Assembly: GCF_023016285.1 (NCBI RefSeq)
Contig: NZ_CP095413.1
Span: 5,160,501 to 5,224,500, forward strand
Length of the DNA: 64,000 nt
Source of the DNA: Muricauda sp. SCSIO 64092
GTDB taxonomy: Bacteria; Bacteroidota; Bacteroidia; Flavobacteriales; Flavobacteriaceae
Direction: 5' to 3'
Position numbers and translations under genes: made by a program. This document shows positions 13,022-29,954 of the stretch, piece after piece; positions within the stretch are counted from its first letter, which is position 1; each line of letters begins with the position of its first letter. Below the pieces are notes generated by a model, which was not told the DNA's origin, searched no databases, and saw nothing but the letters and a program-made list of their open reading frames with translations.

Positions 13022-13424
13022 GGGTATCGGAGCAGACGACAATTGCACCAATTTAGGGAGCTACCATGAACTTGGCGTTCTTTCAGCAAGGATTGGGACG
13101 ACCTTACACTTGGTATGCCATTAAACTTCATTTGCAATCTGCTATGGTAAGTAATCTGCTACCAATTGTAATGAATAGCGATTGTCCGATTTAACACCTT
13201 GAACGTCCTAAGGGAATCATCATTTGTTTGGTACGGGAACGGTCTATTCCATTTTTCTGGTGGCCAACCAAAAACGGCTGTTGAATGGCATAATTGTTGG
13301 TAACTAAGTAAAGGATACCAGGGGTGGACGAAGCTTTGTACACTGCTCTGAAATCCAGATTTCATAAATGACCAATGTGAGTTCAAACCAAATTTTTACT
13401 ATTAATTAATCAAAAAAGTGCGTA
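13022..13424. other. Intergenic region, no gene seen
   Basis: About 400 bp between the terminator and the prohibitin-like gene. A minus-strand frame at 13159-13386 has low-complexity, Trp/His/Ser-rich content and no family pattern, so I do not call it. The promoter of the next gene must lie here, but no clear TAnnTTTG box was found. Confidence 0.35.
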
Positions 13425-14204
13425 ATGAGAGATGTATTTATGTTAAGCATTGCAGCTATGCTATTGTTTTCAAGCTGTGCAGTTATTCGACCGGGTGAAG
13501 CTGGGGTAAAGCAGACCTTGGGGAAGTTTGACGATCAGGTGGCCACCGAGGGCACCGTTTTTTTTAATCCCTTTACAAGTAAGGTGATTAAGGAATCAAC
13601 ACAAACGAATAACATTAAACTTATTTTGACCCTCCCCAGTAAGGAAGGGCTTAGTGTAGAATCGGAAATTTCAATTTTATACCGATTGCAACGAGAGAAG
13701 ATTCCCAGTGTCCTACAAAATCTAGGGCGCGATTACGAATCCATAATTACCAGTGTGTTCCGTTCCGCCTCTTCCGATGTCTGTGCAAAATTCTATGCCA
13801 AGGACATGCACTCAGGGATGCGTTCCAATATCGAGGAAGAAATCAAAGTAAAAATGAATGAAAATCTGAAAAAGCAAGCTGATGGGATTGAATTGATTGC
13901 CGTTTTGATGAAAAGCATCCAATTGCCCCCAGGGTTGGCAAATTCCATTGAGCGAAAACTGCAGGCAGAACAGGACGCCATGCGTATGGAATTTGTAATC
14001 CAACAGGCCAAGCTTGAGGCGAACCGTAAAATTATTGATGCTGAAGGGGAACGCGATGCACAGAAAATCCTTTCCGAGGGTTTGACCGAAGAAATCATCA
14101 AGATCAGGAGCATTGAAGCATTCAATAGGCTTTCGACCTCACCAAACACCAAAATCATCCTTACGGATGGCAAGACCCCCATGCTCATCGATGCCAACGA
14201 ATAA
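13425..14204 (+). CDS. Prohibitin/SPFH-family lipoprotein
   Basis: A 259-residue SPFH (band 7) protein. The N-terminus is a lipoprotein signal with lipobox FSSC (Cys near residue 18), not the more usual transmembrane anchor. The SPFH core follows (IRPGEAGVKQTLGKF to about residue 170), then a charged coiled-coil stretch (ERKLQAEQDAMRMEFVIQQ, about 175-215) with AEGERDAQKI, the typical prohibitin signature. It ends in a short tail, ILTDGKTPMLID. Family members form large ring- or cage-like assemblies that organise membranes and proteases; here the assembly would sit on the periplasmic side of a membrane. Monocistronic, with its own terminator. Confidence 0.85.
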   Translation: MRDVFMLSIAAMLLFSSCAVIRPGEAGVKQTLGKFDDQVATEGTVFFNPFTSKVIKESTQTNNIKLILTLPSKEGLSVESEISILYRLQREKIPSVLQNLGRDYESIITSVFRSASSDVCAKFYAKDMHSGMRSNIEEEIKVKMNENLKKQADGIELIAVLMKSIQLPPGLANSIERKLQAEQDAMRMEFVIQQAKLEANRKIIDAEGERDAQKILSEGLTEEIIKIRSIEAFNRLSTSPNTKIILTDGKTPMLIDANE

Positions 14205-14230
14205 GGCAAGGGAAGGCATAATGATAGGAA

Positions 14231-14258
14231 AGGCATGAAATCAATTTCATGCCTTTTT
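14231..14258 (+). terminator. Rho-independent terminator of the prohibitin-like gene
   Basis: Stem AGGCATGAAA (14231-14240) pairs with TTTCATGCCT (14245-14254) around a 4-nt loop, followed by a T-run to 14258. It lies 26 bp after the stop codon of the prohibitin-like gene. Confidence 0.8.
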
Positions 14259-14364
14259 AGTTGATGGCCATTCCATCCAATAACTTTTTCTGACGGAATT
14301 ATCATTTAAACAAGATGTACGGGTGTCTTGGTGTTATTTAGCCGAGGATTTCAAATACGTTGTT

Positions 14365-15480
14365 ATGTTTAAAAAATATCGAATCCTTAAATGGATATCC
14401 CTCGTTTTAGGTAGTCTCATTGTCGTCATTGTTTCTTTTGGATTTTGGTTCAGAAGTTTAATTCCCCCTGGGGACATCACTATTGAATCCACTACAATTG
14501 AAGACTTACCGTATTTATCGGACAACGTTATCCCAATGAGGGGTAAAATACTGGCCGTGGTAACAAGTACGGATGTCATGGGCAATAGTGGAAAAGGTAC
14601 AGGTTATGAATTATCGGAACTGGCGCGCGCCTATTATACCTTTACGGCAAATGGTTTTGAAGTGGATATTGCGAGTCCAAAAGGAGGGAAGCCACCCGTA
14701 GTAATTGATGATGAAGATATGGGAGCCTATGATTTTGCATTTTTAAATGATTCCATCGCACAGTACAAAACAAGCAATACGCTCAAAATAGAAGATTGTA
14801 TTGGCGAACCGTATAAGGCCATTTTTTTCGTTGGAGGAAAAGGGGCGATGTTCGACTTTCCAAATAACGAGGCAATTCAACATATTGTAAAGGATTATTA
14901 TGAAAGCAATAAAGTCATTGGTGCCGTTTGCCATGGTCCTGCCGCTTTGGTCAATGTAACGTTATCCAATGGACGTCCACTTCTGGAAAATAAGGAAGTG
15001 ACTGGATTTACAAATCGGGAGGAACTACTTTTAATATCCGATGCCCGGAAAATATTTCCCTTTTTATTACAGGACAAGATGATGGAGAAGGGTGCCCATT
15101 TTAAGGAAGGTGCCATGTACTTGGAAAAAATTGGCCATGATGGTAATTTACTTACGGGACAAAACCCATGGTCGACCTGGAGTGTTGCTGAACAAATGAT
15201 CATACAATTGGGCCATGAACCAAAACATAGGGAGATTACCGATGTAGAAAATGCGGTAAAGGTGTTATTGGCCTACAAAACCCATGGGAAACAGGAAGCA
15301 AAAAAAATGATCGGGGCCATGCTACTGAACGGGAACAAGCCCGTAAATAGGGTTTTAATTGCGAAACATGGTATAATTTCAGCGATGCAGGGTAAACTAG
15401 GTGATTTTTCAAATATGATGTCCCTAGTAGCTTTTGCGAAGAAATGTGAATCCAAAAGAAAGGACATAGCACTAAATTAG
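14365..15480 (+). CDS. Membrane-anchored DJ-1/PfpI (type 1 glutamine amidotransferase-like) protein
   Basis: A 371-residue protein with one N-terminal membrane helix (WISLVLGSLIVVIVSFGFWF, about 9-28) and a DJ-1/PfpI domain. The nucleophile elbow is GAVCHGPAAL, with Cys near residue 188, preceded by FFVGGKGAMFDFP with the expected Gly-rich turn. After the domain comes an unusual C-terminal extension of about 90 residues (from EITDVENAVKVLLAY). Relatives are glyoxalase III, chaperone or protease-like enzymes that act on aldehydes or damaged proteins. I start at ATG 14365 rather than GTG 14323 because the positively charged FKKYRILK then directly precedes the helix. An AraC-type regulator gene follows by 15 bp and may control or accompany it. 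Confidence 0.8.
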   Translation: MFKKYRILKWISLVLGSLIVVIVSFGFWFRSLIPPGDITIESTTIEDLPYLSDNVIPMRGKILAVVTSTDVMGNSGKGTGYELSELARAYYTFTANGFEVDIASPKGGKPPVVIDDEDMGAYDFAFLNDSIAQYKTSNTLKIEDCIGEPYKAIFFVGGKGAMFDFPNNEAIQHIVKDYYESNKVIGAVCHGPAALVNVTLSNGRPLLENKEVTGFTNREELLLISDARKIFPFLLQDKMMEKGAHFKEGAMYLEKIGHDGNLLTGQNPWSTWSVAEQMIIQLGHEPKHREITDVENAVKVLLAYKTHGKQEAKKMIGAMLLNGNKPVNRVLIAKHGIISAMQGKLGDFSNMMSLVAFAKKCESKRKDIALN

Positions 15481-16751: not shown

Positions 16752-17600
16752 ATGAGATTTGAACCGGACCATTTAATTGGAGTAAGAACAAGGGATGACC
16801 TAGTTCACACAGCAAAAGAAAACAATATTCCAATTGCCAAAACACTGGACAAATTAAAGTATGAAGTTGAACTAAGAAAATTACAGTCCGAATTTGTAAA
16901 TCTTCAGAAATGGATTGCCGAAAAGAAAATGAGGGTCGCCATTGTTTTCGAAGGAAGGGATGCTGCGGGAAAAGGTGGGTCGATCAAACGATTTAAAGAA
17001 CATTTGAATCCAAGAACATCTAGGGTGGTGGCCTTGACCAAACCCACTGAAGTCGAAAAAGGACAATGGTATTTTAGGCGATACATCAAAGTGCTACCAA
17101 ATCCAGGGGAAATTGTTTTTTTTGATAGAAGTTGGTACAATCGTGCGGTTGTTGAACCAGTTATGGGCTTTTGTACAAAAAAGCAATATGATCAGTTCAT
17201 GGTTCAAGTCTCGGAGTTTGAACATTTACTTTACGAGGATAATTTGAAAATCATCAAGTTTTGGTTTTCCATTTCTAAAGAAGAACAGAAGAAAAGGTTT
17301 GATGCCCGTTTAAGTAACCCTCTTAAACGTTGGAAATTTAGCCCTGTTGATATGAAGGGGCAAGAGTTATGGGATAGCTATACGCACTATAAAGAACAAA
17401 TGTTCAGTAAAACCCACACCAATTTTAGCCCTTGGATCATTGTAAAAACAAACAATAAAAAACAAGCTCGATTGGAAAGTATGCGGTATGTATTATCGCA
17501 ATTTGATTATGATGAAAAGGGGGACTCAAACATTTCCCTTTTACCGGATCCAAATGTAATTATGAAATATCATAGAAGTGCTGTTCAAATAGATATTTAA
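16752..17600 (+). CDS. ppk2: Polyphosphate kinase 2 (PPK2), first of a tandem pair
   Basis: A 282-residue single-domain PPK2 that transfers phosphate between inorganic polyphosphate and nucleotides. Walker A is FEGRDAAGKGGSIKRF near residues 65-80, and the Walker B/lid region FFDRSWYNRAVVEPVMGFC lies near 123-141, both diagnostic. The C-terminal segment PLKRWKFSPVD near 192 is also a family feature. No signal peptide, so cytoplasmic. The downstream gene, 3 bp away, is a second PPK2, which suggests co-translation. Class I type enzymes usually prefer polyphosphate-driven ADP to ATP synthesis; the direction and nucleotide cannot be read from sequence alone. Confidence 0.95.
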   Translation: MRFEPDHLIGVRTRDDLVHTAKENNIPIAKTLDKLKYEVELRKLQSEFVNLQKWIAEKKMRVAIVFEGRDAAGKGGSIKRFKEHLNPRTSRVVALTKPTEVEKGQWYFRRYIKVLPNPGEIVFFDRSWYNRAVVEPVMGFCTKKQYDQFMVQVSEFEHLLYEDNLKIIKFWFSISKEEQKKRFDARLSNPLKRWKFSPVDMKGQELWDSYTHYKEQMFSKTHTNFSPWIIVKTNNKKQARLESMRYVLSQFDYDEKGDSNISLLPDPNVIMKYHRSAVQIDI

Positions 17601-17603
17601 GAC

Positions 17604-18377
17604 ATGAAGAATAGAGCATATACGGAAGAAGAAATAGAACTGCTTAATTCAAAGATAGGTTTGCATACGCTTTTTAAGAATAAAAAAGTCAAAATGGACA
17701 AAGTCCTTGAAGAAGTTAAATATCTGACCGAGGTAAGAAAGCAGCAGGAAAAACTGATAAAACTTCAAAATTGGGTCATACAAAACGATAAGAAAGTAGT
17801 AATTCTTTTCGAGGGGAGGGACGCCGCAGGTAAAGGTGGGGCAATAAGACGAATCACGGAATATATTAACCCAAGGCACTTTAGAACGGTGGCTTTGAAC
17901 ATTCCTTCGGAGGATGAAAAAAGGCAATGGTTTTTCCAACGGTATATCAATCAATTGCCCAAACCTGGAGAAATGGTATTTTTTGATAGAAGTTGGTACA
18001 ACAGGGCAGTGGTGGAACCAGTTAACGGTTTTTGTACCGAAAAGGAATATAGGGTTTTCATGTCCCAGGTCAATGATTTTGAAAAGATGCTTGTACAGTC
18101 AGATACGTATCTGATCAAATTGTATTTTTCAATCACTAAAAAAGAGCAAGCCCATAGATTCATGGAAATAAAGAATAATCCCCTGAAACGTTGGAAGATA
18201 ACCCCAGTTGATGAAAAAGCGCAGGCTTTGTGGGACGATTATACCTTTTATAAAACCAAAATGTTTGAAGCTACAAACACAGAAACCGCACCTTGGTTAA
18301 TTATTGATGCAAACAAAAAATCAAATGCCAGATTGAAAGCAATTTCACATATTCTTACGGTCATACCGTATGAGTAA
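17604..18377 (+). CDS. ppk2: Polyphosphate kinase 2 (PPK2), second of a tandem pair
   Basis: A 257-residue PPK2 paralog of the preceding gene. Walker A FEGRDAAGKGGAIRRI lies near residues 68-83, FFDRSWYNRAVVEPVNGFC near 125-143, and PLKRWKITPVDEKAQ near 193. The N-terminal region differs clearly from the first copy and the C-terminal tail is shorter. Divergence outside the motifs indicates an old duplication and possibly different nucleotide preference (for example AMP or GDP). It ends about 115 bp before a convergent minus-strand gene. Start ATG 17604 follows the upstream stop by 3 bp. Confidence 0.94.
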   Translation: MKNRAYTEEEIELLNSKIGLHTLFKNKKVKMDKVLEEVKYLTEVRKQQEKLIKLQNWVIQNDKKVVILFEGRDAAGKGGAIRRITEYINPRHFRTVALNIPSEDEKRQWFFQRYINQLPKPGEMVFFDRSWYNRAVVEPVNGFCTEKEYRVFMSQVNDFEKMLVQSDTYLIKLYFSITKKEQAHRFMEIKNNPLKRWKITPVDEKAQALWDDYTFYKTKMFEATNTETAPWLIIDANKKSNARLKAISHILTVIPYE

Positions 18378-26352: not shown

Positions 26353-26712
26353 GATGCCCCAGTCACCATGCTGGGATAACAAGTGGGCCGTTGTGCTTAA
26401 AGATTCTTCGTTTAGCGTTTTCCAGTAAAACCACATTTTGTAAGAAAAAAAGGTATGCTTTTGATAGTGGTAACCCAATTGTGTAGGTAAATGGGCATGA
26501 AATGGTATAAAACCCATAGAAAGAATAAGGTTTTTGTGTAGTTGATTTTACCGGACAATTGTTATTTTCAAAGACCTCAATATCCGAACCGGCCTTAGTT
26601 TACATCCCCCACAAATTACATGTGCCAATGGGCGTCAATGAATAACCAGGGTACCTATACTTTGGGGATTCTACAGCATATATCGGATGGATTAATTTTT
26701 AACACTTTTGTC
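26353..26712. other. Intergenic region, no gene seen
   Basis: About 360 bp between the LytTR regulator and the CBS membrane protein gene. Reading frames on both strands here look like chance frames. The promoter of the four-gene unit that follows should lie here; no exact TAnnTTTG box was picked out. Confidence 0.35.
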
Positions 26713-27450
26713 ATGGAAAATAAAAAATGGTACCAATTGGGCGAGGCTGCCAATAGAAACAGACTGGCCACTATAATAATCTGGTTCACTTTTGTGGCTA
26801 TCATTGTACTGGCACTCTTGTACTATCTCCTATCCAAAAAGGGTGCTGATACCATGGGGGACATCTTTGACACATTGATTCCTTTGTTCGCCACCTGGGT
26901 CGGGACCGTACTGGCGTTTTATTTCGGAAAGGAGAATTTTGATATTGCCACCAAACGCTACAATAAATTGATTGATAAACTAAGCCCGGATGTTTTGGAT
27001 GACATCAATGTCACCCAGATCATGATTTCCAAACAGACCATGGTCTACAAAGATTTAATGGAAGTACAAGGGAAAAAAGTACAGGAAATCATAGACTTCC
27101 TTTCGGAGGTAAAAAAATCAAGGCTTCCCATCCTTGATAATGACAAAATTAAATATGTGATCCATAAAGCCACCTTTCTGGACGCACTGAATGAATTGGG
27201 AAATACGGTTCCTGCAGCCAACTATGATTTCAAAGCGTTTATCTCCAATGCAAAATACCAAAAATTGGCCAGCAGCTTTTTAACATTTGACGAAGCTGTA
27301 ATACTGGAGAAAATTCGATTGGCGCTGACCAAAGACCCAAGTGTGAAGGATGTGTTTATTATTGATAAAAATAAAAGCGTGGTAGGTTGGTTGACCGATA
27401 CCTTGATTCTGAGGTATCTTTCTGGGGGAAACGAAGCCTTGGATTCCTAA
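26713..27450 (+). CDS. Membrane protein with two helices and a CBS-pair-like cytoplasmic domain
   Basis: A 245-residue protein starting at ATG 26713; an upstream GTG-type extension to 26620 has no membrane or domain logic. Two membrane helices are seen: LATIIIWFTFVAIIVLALLY (about 18-37) and a second at about 52-72 ending FYFG. The remaining 170 residues resemble a pair of CBS repeats: one with SRLPILDNDKIKYVIH, and one with VKDVFIIDKNKSVVGWLTD near the C-terminus. CBS pairs bind adenine nucleotides and act as sensors. It is the first of four closely spaced genes with a GH46-like enzyme and two paralogous unknowns. The nucleotide-sensing role is inferred from the repeats. Confidence 0.65.
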   Translation: MENKKWYQLGEAANRNRLATIIIWFTFVAIIVLALLYYLLSKKGADTMGDIFDTLIPLFATWVGTVLAFYFGKENFDIATKRYNKLIDKLSPDVLDDINVTQIMISKQTMVYKDLMEVQGKKVQEIIDFLSEVKKSRLPILDNDKIKYVIHKATFLDALNELGNTVPAANYDFKAFISNAKYQKLASSFLTFDEAVILEKIRLALTKDPSVKDVFIIDKNKSVVGWLTDTLILRYLSGGNEALDS

Positions 27451-27544
27451 AGCGGTTGCAGTGATTGTTTTCAAATTTCATATTACCCGCCCAATATTGG
27501 TGGCCAAATTACCTGGGATGGAGCAATAATTATATAGTCTGGAA

Positions 27545-28249
27545 GTGGATAAGAAAAAAAAGATAATACAGGTTTTAAATGTTTTTGAGACTGGGGTGGC
27601 CGAAGGAAAATATCATTTGATTTCCGTTTACCAAGACGGACCGATTGATAAAAACACGGGACGTAACATTTATCAAATCACCTATGGTAGAAGCCAAACC
27701 ACCGAATTTGGGAACTTAAAGCGCCTTATTGAGGTATACATGGAAATGGATGGGAAGTTTTCAAATTCTTTCCAAAACTACGTGAATAGAATTGGCCGGA
27801 GGCCATCTTTAAGAAAGAACAAGGAATTTATCAAGCTACTTAAACGGGCCGCTTTGGAGGACGTGGTAATGAAAAATGCCCAAGATGTCTTTTTTGATCG
27901 CTATTATTACAAACCCGCCCATGCATGGTTTACGGGACATGGTTTCACACTTCCGTTGAGCTTACTGGTCATTTATGACAGCTTTATACATTCTGGACGG
28001 ATCTTGGGAAAATTGAGGCAAAGATTTGCGGAAGTACCCCCGGTAGAAGGAGGGGATGAAAAAAAATGGATCACCAACTATGTCAATGCAAGACACGATT
28101 GGTTATTGTCATTTCAATATCATTCCAATCCAAAGCGAAGGGTATTGGCAAAAACCGTCTATAGGACGCAGTGTTTTAAAGATTTAATAGCGGCAAATAA
28201 CTGGGAACTGGAAGGTACTATAAACGCCAATGGCGTGCTTATTCCATGA
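27545..28249 (+). CDS. GH46 chitosanase-like glycoside hydrolase without signal peptide
   Basis: A 234-residue protein starting at GTG 27545. It resembles GH46 chitosanases: a Glu in VLNVFETG (Glu15), an Asp in VYQDGPID (Asp31), and the motif ITYGRSQTTEFGNL at residues 45-58 that is common in bacterial chitosanase-like proteins. The rest of the chain is helical, with HGFTLPLSLLVIYDSFIHSG near 138-157 fitting the family's second lobe. Secreted chitosanases have signal peptides; this protein has none, so it would stay in the cytoplasm or leave by another route. It lies between a CBS membrane protein gene and two paralogous unknown genes. The natural substrate could be a GlcN/GlcNAc polymer such as peptidoglycan. 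Confidence 0.65.
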   Translation: MDKKKKIIQVLNVFETGVAEGKYHLISVYQDGPIDKNTGRNIYQITYGRSQTTEFGNLKRLIEVYMEMDGKFSNSFQNYVNRIGRRPSLRKNKEFIKLLKRAALEDVVMKNAQDVFFDRYYYKPAHAWFTGHGFTLPLSLLVIYDSFIHSGRILGKLRQRFAEVPPVEGGDEKKWITNYVNARHDWLLSFQYHSNPKRRVLAKTVYRTQCFKDLIAANNWELEGTINANGVLIP

Positions 28250-28295
28250 ACCATACTCAAATAGGTATTGCAATAATTTAATTTTTACGAACTAT

Positions 28296-29117
28296 ATGGC
28301 AACAAAATGGCAATCACTGGAAGAAGTAAATGTCCAATTGCTGGATACTGCGCTCAAGACCAGGGTGAACGAACTAAAGAGTGAAAGTGTCAATCTTTCC
28401 GATCCCGACATTAAGCTTTCGGAGTTTAGGGTGTATCAAAAACAGGTTAACCGAAATGTTTCCTCCTCAATCAGCGTAGCGCCTTATTTTAAGGGGGATG
28501 GGGAGTACGATGATTTGGAATTCCGTTATTTTGCCGGTGCTTTTTCCGATCGGCATCGGTTTACAAAGGGAACTGATACTTCGATCATTGCCGAACGTTT
28601 TGGCCTGGGCATCCAAATAGACCTTAAGGTAACCCAGATAAAAAGTGCCATCAATTTGGGGTTTGGTATGATTGCCGCAGCTGTGGAAATGGGCCTGGCG
28701 GAAGCCAATTATTCCTATAAAATATATGCATTGCCCTCGGGAGAATTCCATGATACCTTGCCTAAGGTTGGAAGATTCAACCAACAATCCATTAAACAGT
28801 TTCAAAAGCTTGTGAACAAGCTTAAGGAATTGTATTCCAAAAGCTTAACCAATTTGGAACTGTCCGCTATTGGGGTTTTAACATCGGATTCCATTAAAGA
28901 GGACGGAACGGAAAATGCCCCATCGTATTACTTTGCTGCCAGACGGATCATTGAAGCAATGTCCTTAAGGGATGCCATAAAGTTGTCCAGAAGGCGATCG
29001 GAACCCTATAATGAAGACGCTATCCAATATCTCTACGGCAGATGTGGCATTACCGGTTTAGAGGAAAAACCCATAAGCAGTAATATTTCCAAAGCAAAGA
29101 AAATAATCCTTGAATAA
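28296..29117 (+). CDS. Unknown protein, paralog of the next gene product
   Basis: A 273-residue soluble protein starting at ATG 28296, with no signal peptide and no recognised domain. Residues about 55-160 align with the product of the next gene at nearly the same positions. SSSIS at 56-60 matches SSKLEI at 55-60. GLGIQIDL (103-110) matches GYGLRIKI (102-109), and GMIAAAVEMGLAEA (124-137) matches GAVSAAAQLGYADA (123-136). The shared region looks like beta-strands followed by an Ala-rich helix. Its C-terminal half (about 165-273) is helical and differs from the paralog. The gene is 46 bp behind the GH46-like gene and 12 bp before the paralog, so operon membership is likely. Confidence 0.7.
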   Translation: MATKWQSLEEVNVQLLDTALKTRVNELKSESVNLSDPDIKLSEFRVYQKQVNRNVSSSISVAPYFKGDGEYDDLEFRYFAGAFSDRHRFTKGTDTSIIAERFGLGIQIDLKVTQIKSAINLGFGMIAAAVEMGLAEANYSYKIYALPSGEFHDTLPKVGRFNQQSIKQFQKLVNKLKELYSKSLTNLELSAIGVLTSDSIKEDGTENAPSYYFAARRIIEAMSLRDAIKLSRRRSEPYNEDAIQYLYGRCGITGLEEKPISSNISKAKKIILE

Positions 29118-29129
29118 ACTATCTGGAAA

Positions 29130-29954
29130 ATGGCATTAATCAATATTCCTGTAAATCCTTCATTAAATGAGAAAGGGGAATTTGCAACACTGGACAACTT
29201 TCTTTCCACACCCTTAAAACCGGTCCCGTTTAAAAACGCTGATAAGGCAAGAAATGAATTTGGACAAGAATACAAATTTAACCTGTCCACTTCCTCCAAG
29301 TTGGAGATTGCCGCAATTGGAGGCATCGAAAACAACCATAACACTACGGTATTTATTCATGATTCCATAATATACAGGCTTGCAAGGAGCAAGGATACCG
29401 ACCCTAAAAACATTATCAAGGGAACATGGTGGGGGTACGGTCTTCGTATAAAAATAATGGTCAAGAATACGCAATTTGGTGTCGATATCAACTGGGGCGC
29501 AGTTTCCGCTGCCGCCCAATTGGGATATGCCGATGCAGAATTTGAAATTGCAGGTATTGGAATTACAAATTCCGATATCTTTAAATTATTGCCATCCCCC
29601 ACAGATTTAAATCTGGACAGTTATGGTGAGGTTTTGGAAATAGGAAATTCAATTCGAAATTATCTTGGTAGTGCAGACCCTACGGGAGTTGAATATAAAC
29701 CTTTGAGAATTGAGGTTGATGAATCTTCCATTCTCGCCATTGATCCCATTGAAAATGACCGGCACTTGATTTTTACCTATCAAAAGGTGAATCAGAGAAA
29801 ACGCATACGTGACATACGGAAGGAAGCCATTGAAAAAGGACTTAACCCTGATTTGGTCAAGACGTACTACAACGAGGTTTTTCAAATTTCGGATGAGGAC
29901 AAAAAACCCTCAACTTCAGATAGGAGGGAAGCAAAGGCATGGCTTGATCGCTAA
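29130..29954 (+). CDS. Unknown protein, paralog of the preceding gene product
   Basis: A 274-residue soluble protein with no signal peptide. It shares a core of about 100 residues with the preceding protein: SSKLEI at 55-60, GYGLRIKI at 102-109 and GAVSAAAQLGYADA at 123-136. The N-terminal 50 residues and the C-terminus (a basic, charged helix with YQKVNQRKRIRDIRKEAIEK near 218-237) are different. It is the last gene of the four-gene unit; a convergent Ada-like gene ends 127 bp further on. The equal length and register of the pair suggest a heteromeric partner of the first paralog. No family is recognised. Confidence 0.7.
   Translation: MALINIPVNPSLNEKGEFATLDNFLSTPLKPVPFKNADKARNEFGQEYKFNLSTSSKLEIAAIGGIENNHNTTVFIHDSIIYRLARSKDTDPKNIIKGTWWGYGLRIKIMVKNTQFGVDINWGAVSAAAQLGYADAEFEIAGIGITNSDIFKLLPSPTDLNLDSYGEVLEIGNSIRNYLGSADPTGVEYKPLRIEVDESSILAIDPIENDRHLIFTYQKVNQRKRIRDIRKEAIEKGLNPDLVKTYYNEVFQISDEDKKPSTSDRREAKAWLDR

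Follow-up and report, generated by a model that had tools for sequence, protein, structure and literature searches.

A Conserved Protein Pair Beside Exchangeable, Putatively Wall-Lytic Enzymes: A Tentative Case for a Self-Lysis Module in Muricauda

Introduction

How might a bacterium that makes a seemingly wall-degrading enzyme with no export signal ever bring that enzyme to its wall, and why would it do so? The question is raised by four genes in a 64,000-nucleotide stretch of the genome of Muricauda sp. SCSIO 64092 (contig NZ_CP095413.1, positions 5,160,501 to 5,224,500; this whole stretch is called the window, and positions are counted from its first letter). In order, they encode a membrane protein with a CBS-like domain (gene 1), an enzyme of glycoside hydrolase family 46 (GH46; gene 2), and two proteins that resemble each other and little else (genes 3 and 4). 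The answer that we propose, with a probability of about 0.4, is that the core of the locus is the gene 3–gene 4 pair plus one exchangeable wall-lytic enzyme and that this core would serve self-lysis by the logic of a phage holin and endolysin.

The four genes are these:

26713..27450, + strand: gene 1, membrane protein, then a CBS-like domain; proposed sensor (CBS match of 21.7 bits, cut-off 24; hydropathy)
27545..28249, + strand, GTG start: gene 2, GH46-family glycan hydrolase with no signal peptide, endolysin-like (PF01374, chitosanase structure 7c6c, viral relatives)
28296..29117, + strand: gene 3, first member of the pair, 273 residues (homolog alignment, model)
29130..29954, + strand: gene 4, second member of the pair, 274 residues (paralogy; poor model)

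Results

A Pair That Stays Together

The products of genes 3 and 4 share 21% identity at an E value of 2e-9, which makes the genes paralogs. The original prediction saw in them a pair with no known family, and so it has proved: no Pfam or NCBIfam match passes a curated cut-off (the best of those that fall short is NCBIfam ArgJ, at 0.0066 for gene 4), no PADLOC or PHROG entry matches either at E up to 1, and the PDB holds no sequence match. Counting the queries, protein searches yielded eight proteins of the gene 3 family and nine of the gene 4 family, and none of these 17 has a functional name.

Outside the genus, three contigs (953832, 193841, and 54744 bases) each carry one member of each family, a co-location judged by equal base count and, for the contig of 193841 bases, by neighboring locus tags as well. 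The two genes lie 10 bp apart in Flavihumibacter petaseus, and in the genome G1222 they are fused into one protein of 550 residues that keeps the order gene 3–gene 4: its N-terminal half is closest to gene 3 (1e-26) and its C-terminal half to a member of the gene 4 family (3e-36), and in either comparison P0140 and P0147, both single-copy forms, score nearly as well. Because of this fusion and of adjacency in the same order, we have what we regard as good evidence, drawn from sequence, that the two proteins work together.

The families are thinly spread. Members occur in 2 of 60 relatives and, by rank, in 1 of 395 genomes (class), 6 of 397 (family), and 3 of 395 (phylum); the Flavihumibacter family gave 6 of 294 and the genus of G1222 gave 1 of 5. 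These counts include the query or center genome, overlap one another, and take in distant forms. A viral or plasmid origin of the pair was considered and rejected: a pattern search of viral_contigs found no relatives of the pair, and there were none of genes 3 and 4 in plasmids and none in phage records, where gene 4 alone was the query.

Around the pair there is a wider protein family with the central domain common to genes 3 and 4 (P0141-P0144 and P0149, at L011-L014 and L046). Several of its proteins have, by eye, secretion- or lipoprotein-like N-termini; P0141 has further matches on Psychrobacter and Caballeronia plasmids (plasmid hits H9 and H10), and no Pfam family above cut-off covers the members that were scanned.

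Enzymes That Change Beside the Pair

If the pair has a constant partner, is it the GH46 enzyme? We compared six independent loci at which a family member is full length; among them, the two genomes of the window's genus count as one. At four of the six (a raw count), a wall-lytic-looking enzyme with no visible signal peptide adjoins on the same strand. In the window, the GH46 gene lies 46 bp upstream of the pair; at L006, a VanY protein (28.1 bits, cut-off 25) lies 56 bp downstream; in G636, an Amidase_3 protein lies 28 bp upstream of the pair-family gene; and in G1222, a CHAP/NlpC-like protein, under both Pfam cut-offs, lies 17 bp downstream of the fused gene. The absence of a signal peptide was computed for gene 2 and judged by eye for the other three.

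Some of these enzymes have relatives in phages. In PHROG, the Amidase_3 protein matches the endolysin family phrog_435 (6e-35), VanY matches the endolysin family phrog_2649 (6e-4), and the CHAP-like protein weakly matches phrog_1015, a “tail protein with lysin activity” (0.0055). The L006 pair has two more proteins upstream: a transpeptidase-like protein, so named by eye alone and with no Pfam match, which matches a phage family of no assigned function (5e-14), and a secreted-looking GH75-like protein (25.3, cut-off 27). A search of the viral contigs found no close relatives of the L006 transpeptidase-like and VanY proteins or of the CHAP-like protein (L044).

The four genes had been put forward as one combination, and as a conserved system, that combination fails: outside the genus, other enzymes stand beside the pair, and the relative of gene 1 is found elsewhere. 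GH46 adjoins a pair-family gene in none of the five other independent loci (0/5), so that part of the neighborhood proposal falls. Conservation does hold for the pair, and at three of the five its neighbor is another wall-lytic-looking enzyme with no visible signal peptide. GH46 thus seems to be one of a class of enzymes that can stand in for one another.

Two further neighbors may be recorded. Downstream of the L006 pair (13393-14613), a prokaryotic YEATS domain is part of a membrane protein, and a search of the accessible literature found no paper on pYEATS. About 1.3 kilobases (kb) beyond the peptidase that adjoins a pair relative, at L043 5803-7029, is a DUF4062-like protein (under cut-off) that matches the PADLOC candidate PDC-S60 at 4e-28.

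The GH46 Enzyme

Gene 2 was described beforehand as a GH46-like enzyme with no signal peptide, and both halves of that description hold. It matches Pfam Glyco_hydro_46 (PF01374) at 9.8e-12, with 45.4 bits against a cut-off of 27, and the chitosanase 7c6c in the PDB at 7e-12; its highest mean hydropathy over 19 residues is 1.19. Two acidic residues mark the proposed active site:

27587..27589, + strand: codon of E15, proposed catalytic acid; the alignment pairs it with a Glu of 7c6c, for which 7c6d has Ala
27635..27637, + strand: codon of D31, proposed second catalytic residue, on conservation

Both are kept in 16 of 16 aligned bacterial proteins and in all 27 viral copies, and D31 is assigned its role by analogy with GH46. 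Against PADLOC, gene 2 gave just one weak, partial match (PDC-S05, 0.011).

The viral copies come from 27 loci in viral_contigs (24 distinct proteins, 35–51% identity to gene 2). They are called viral by their membership in that collection and, for 17 of the 27, by homologs of L065 tail genes within the stretch examined; the three L065 genes used as comparators match PHROG tail families. A cytoplasmic enzyme with a target in the wall fits what is seen in phage endolysins. Wall glycan seems a likelier substrate than chitosan.

The same facts can be read otherwise. Perhaps the locus serves ordinary glycan use or wall remodeling, with gene 2 breaking down chitosan or recycling wall and the pair acting as unrelated cytosolic binders of lipid or glycan. 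GH46 relatives are indeed abundant in bacteria with no pair (1397 proteins, of which 120 were listed), which makes gene 2 an enzyme in wide use and not specific to this unit, and every named one among those 120 is called a chitosanase; a few structure matches of gene 3, given below, also favor this reading. However, genes 2–4 lack signal peptides, no transporter or SusCD genes adjoin the unit (by eye, in the window's list of open reading frames), and families with unrelated substrates (amidase, peptidase, glycosidase) each adjoin a pair-family gene. We consider this explanation improbable.

Could the proteins instead be payloads of a contractile injection system, a type VI secretion system or similar, so that signal peptides would not be needed? 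GH46 copies do lie near tail genes in viral contigs, and in G901 (L042 1660-8943), a GH46 relative lies ~5 kb from a gene that resembles, by eye, a phage tail sheath. However, no injection-system genes were seen by eye in the open reading frames of the window, a pattern search of viral_contigs found no relatives of the pair, a search of phage records found none of gene 4, and no common delivery tag was seen on the two proteins. To this idea we give little chance.

On Rhizobium, Pararhizobium, and Microvirga plasmids (L016, L017, L018), GH46 relatives sit near varying sets of L,D-transpeptidase (YkuD_2), caspase-like, astacin, C25, and GDSL-like proteins, some of these family matches being under cut-off. 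The N-terminal extensions of the GH46 proteins and of the L017 YkuD_2 protein look alike by eye and are perhaps a common tag.

What Shape Might the Pair Have?

The structural model of gene 3 has a predicted local distance difference test score (pLDDT) of 78 and a predicted template-modeling score of 0.55; that of gene 4 is poor (pLDDT 47). They divide the proteins as follows:

28296..28907, + strand: gene 3 residues 1-204, beta-rich, aligning to MACPF/CDC structures, with an invariant G-x-G (FGLG) (model, structure search)
28908..29114, + strand: gene 3 residues 205-273, four-helix C-terminal domain (model)
29751..29951, + strand: gene 4 residues 208-274, helical C-terminal domain, the sole confident part of that model (block means 88-95 from residue 211)

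Judged by their titles and known folds, 39 of the 50 VIA rows shown for gene 3 are of MACPF/CDC type, and EaCDCL entries (9ccq, 9ccp, 8g32) are among the rows. In the viral structure library, two of the top three matches are of this type, at E about 0.2. On such matches to a model, we propose that genes 3 and 4 have a reduced MACPF/CDC-like fold and may form a pore. Foldseek also returned eight TULIP-type rows of low probability for gene 3; a TULIP fold was set aside, such rows being absent among the 50 VIA rows shown. A NACHT-associated type of C-terminal domain was likewise dropped, all hints being under cut-off (SNaCT13 0.044, SesA 0.023).

A pore raises the strongest rival to self-lysis, by analogy a toxin pair with no leader that autolysis sets free: the pair would form pores in competitors, and the wall enzyme would either lyse a few producers to let the pair out or enter the victim through the pore. 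The MACPF/CDC-type matches of gene 3 serve this reading equally well. Bacteroidota two-component CDC-like pairs kill related species (PMC11169675), and in pneumococcus, a CDC lacking a signal peptide is described as genetically linked to LytA, the amidase that frees it by autolysis (PMC4607534). But the CDC-like pairs analyzed in PMC11169675 were chosen for their SpII signals, of which genes 3 and 4 have none, no immunity gene was recognized beside the pair, and the likeness of the enzymes to phage endolysins points to an attack from within. The self-lysis and toxin readings differ in the membrane where the hole forms. We think the toxin unlikely.

Gene 1 and Its Distant Relative

Gene 1 has a hydrophobic segment at about residues 15-45, a weaker one near 51-69, and a CBS-like domain after them. 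Its earlier description as a CBS membrane protein stands for the membrane part (highest 19-residue mean hydropathy 2.88), but its own CBS match falls short of the Pfam cut-off, which a relative passes. That relative, in G028 (44% identity; CBS 33.9 bits, cut-off 24), is the one clear match in 179 genomes of the family, the query's own genome aside; two others are weak. No PADLOC entry matches gene 1 at E up to 1.

The company that the G028 relative keeps is suggestive. The next gene, 35 bp on, encodes a fusion protein of 744 residues (Trypsin_2-Endonuclease_1), the protease part of which matches the PADLOC RT-Protease defense model at 1e-6, and another membrane protein follows (L059 5772-8737). 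The fusion protein looks like a self-directed effector, and the three-gene locus is a possible conflict system. Conflict systems that use trypsin and nuclease, and among whose effectors are lysozyme- and papain-like ones, are described in PMC7159879, where such effector domains are said possibly to attack peptidoglycan, and a CBS-HEPN protein that defends against phage is reported in PMC13092281. Since the relative of gene 1 adjoins a trypsin-nuclease protein and these parallels exist, a nucleotide-gated role in death or defense is plausible for gene 1.

Gene 1 is not the constant member that it was first taken for: the Flavihumibacter and G636 genomes contain no homolog at E 0.01. This bears on a further possibility, that gene 1 is itself the holin-like hole former and that the pair regulates or chaperones the enzyme. 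It is the unit's only membrane protein, but it carries a CBS-like domain, and in Flavihumibacter and G636, a pair-family gene adjoins an enzyme with no gene 1 homolog in the genome. We find this scheme hard to credit.

The Unit as a Set of Genes

The reported layout of four closely spaced genes on one strand was confirmed, with gaps of 94, 46, and 12 bp. Gene 1 might start at 26620 and gene 3 at 28230, but the residue encoded at 28296 is the N-terminus in 6 of 7 aligned relatives of gene 3. The whole unit recurs in G007, the sole carrier among 10 other genomes of the genus, and the ratios of nonsynonymous to synonymous change (pN/pS) between it and the window are 0.11, 0.13, 0.06, and 0.08 for genes 1 to 4. 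These low values point to purifying selection, and so all four behave as selected coding genes. A hydropathy scan of genes 2–4 found no hydrophobic stretch of signal or membrane type (maxima of 1.44 and 0.77 for genes 3 and 4).

Promoter-like sites number 13, against 12.0 in shuffles (SD 3.3; ~1 SD or less), and terminator-like sites number 8, against 5.5 (SD 2.3; about 1 SD). The Bacteroidota -33/-7 promoter pattern finds no match. Elsewhere in the window (16752-18377) is a tandem paralogous gene pair that resembles, by eye, polyphosphate kinase 2.

Discussion

A conserved pair, an exchangeable enzyme of endolysin type, and no signal peptides: a holin-endolysin-like module is the simplest reading of these together. 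In such a module, the cytosolic paralogs 3 and 4, having no export signals, would assemble jointly in the cell's own inner membrane into a large hole with a reduced MACPF/CDC-like fold, and through that hole the folded GH46 enzyme would gain access to the peptidoglycan, with lysis as the result. The place of the phage holin would be taken by a hole former in two parts, of bacterial make, with the endolysin logic kept. In the window's genus, the membrane CBS protein might act as trigger or brake by reading an adenine-type nucleotide, and under its control, lysis would come upon infection or stress. Lysis and defense had both been named as candidate roles at the outset, rightly so as possibilities. 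The full statement, a programmed-lysis module not of phage make, with a two-part MACPF/CDC-like opener and an exchangeable endolysin under a nucleotide-sensing membrane protein, we regard as doubtful; it would amount to a bacterial form of cell death by pores that brings its own wall cutter.

Several results weigh against self-lysis and are best faced together. At the fifth of the six loci (G1308), the adjoining peptidase looks secreted (its SprT-like match is under cut-off); at the sixth (G1173, a divergent form), no wall-lytic-looking enzyme adjoins; and beside five more distant forms (L022-L025, L046), none was seen by eye, L023 having an M23-like gene two genes off on the other strand. The phage link suffers in that annotated phage records contain no match to gene 2 and that neither gene 2 nor its L065 relative matches a PHROG lysis family, and the abundance of GH46 enzymes in bacteria with no pair counts on the same side. 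As for the fold, neither MACPF nor Thiol_cytolysin of Pfam matches gene 3 or gene 4 at E up to 1 or any of the relatives scanned, and hhalign of the pair family against seven MACPF proteins was negative. MACPF/CDC proteins have the sequence motif Y/W-G-T/S-H-F/Y. An alternative motif, YGR plus GG, is given in PMC7527733. Neither was found by eye among 21 sequences of the family, in which the closest invariant feature is G-x-G after F, W, or Y.

Were the proposal true, proteins of MACPF/CDC type would act on their own membrane from inside bacteria, and lysis cassettes would belong to bacteria themselves, with a different hole former. Bacteroidota would offer a testable self-lysis system (for anti-phage death or for the release of toxin or DNA), and the family of 17 listed proteins would have its first role. 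Among the matches listed in our searches of literature titles and abstracts, no such module is described, and we claim its absence from those searches only.

Comparison with Known Systems

How does the unit compare with what is already described? With the nucleoside triphosphate (NTP)-dependent conflict systems, whose effectors include trypsin, nuclease, and EAD1 (PMC7159879), it shares a gene 1 relative that precedes a trypsin-nuclease protein. Unlike them, it contains no recognized NTPase, EAD1, or NucA, and the G028 nuclease is Endonuclease_1; the available text of PMC7159879 does not mention MACPF, CBS, or chitosanase. The GH46 chitosanases share with gene 2 the family profile and the two acidic residues, but gene 2 has no signal peptide and has relatives in viral contigs.

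The pneumococcal plyA-lytA island (PMC4607534) also links a pore former lacking a signal peptide to an autolysin, but its pore former is a single CDC of other length and architecture, whereas here there is a short pair with a helical C-terminal domain and enzymes that vary. The Bacteroidota two-component CDCLs (PMC11169675) are likewise encoded by adjacent paralogous genes, as here and in Flavihumibacter (and fused in G1222), but genes 3 and 4 lack an SpII signal, a PF01289 match, and the YGR motif, and wall-lytic-looking enzymes stand alongside them.

Set against phage holin-endolysin cassettes, the partner here is a soluble-looking pair of ~270 residues each, with no membrane segments, where a phage would have a small membrane holin; the pair is not found in viral_contigs, nor gene 4 in phage records, and gene 1, although a membrane protein, is CBS-like. 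What the unit has in common with those cassettes is an enzyme whose relatives lie in viral contigs, most of them together with tail-gene homologs, and, more generally, a set of wall-lytic-looking enzymes, from many families and with no signal peptides, beside one conserved partner that may be able to open the membrane.

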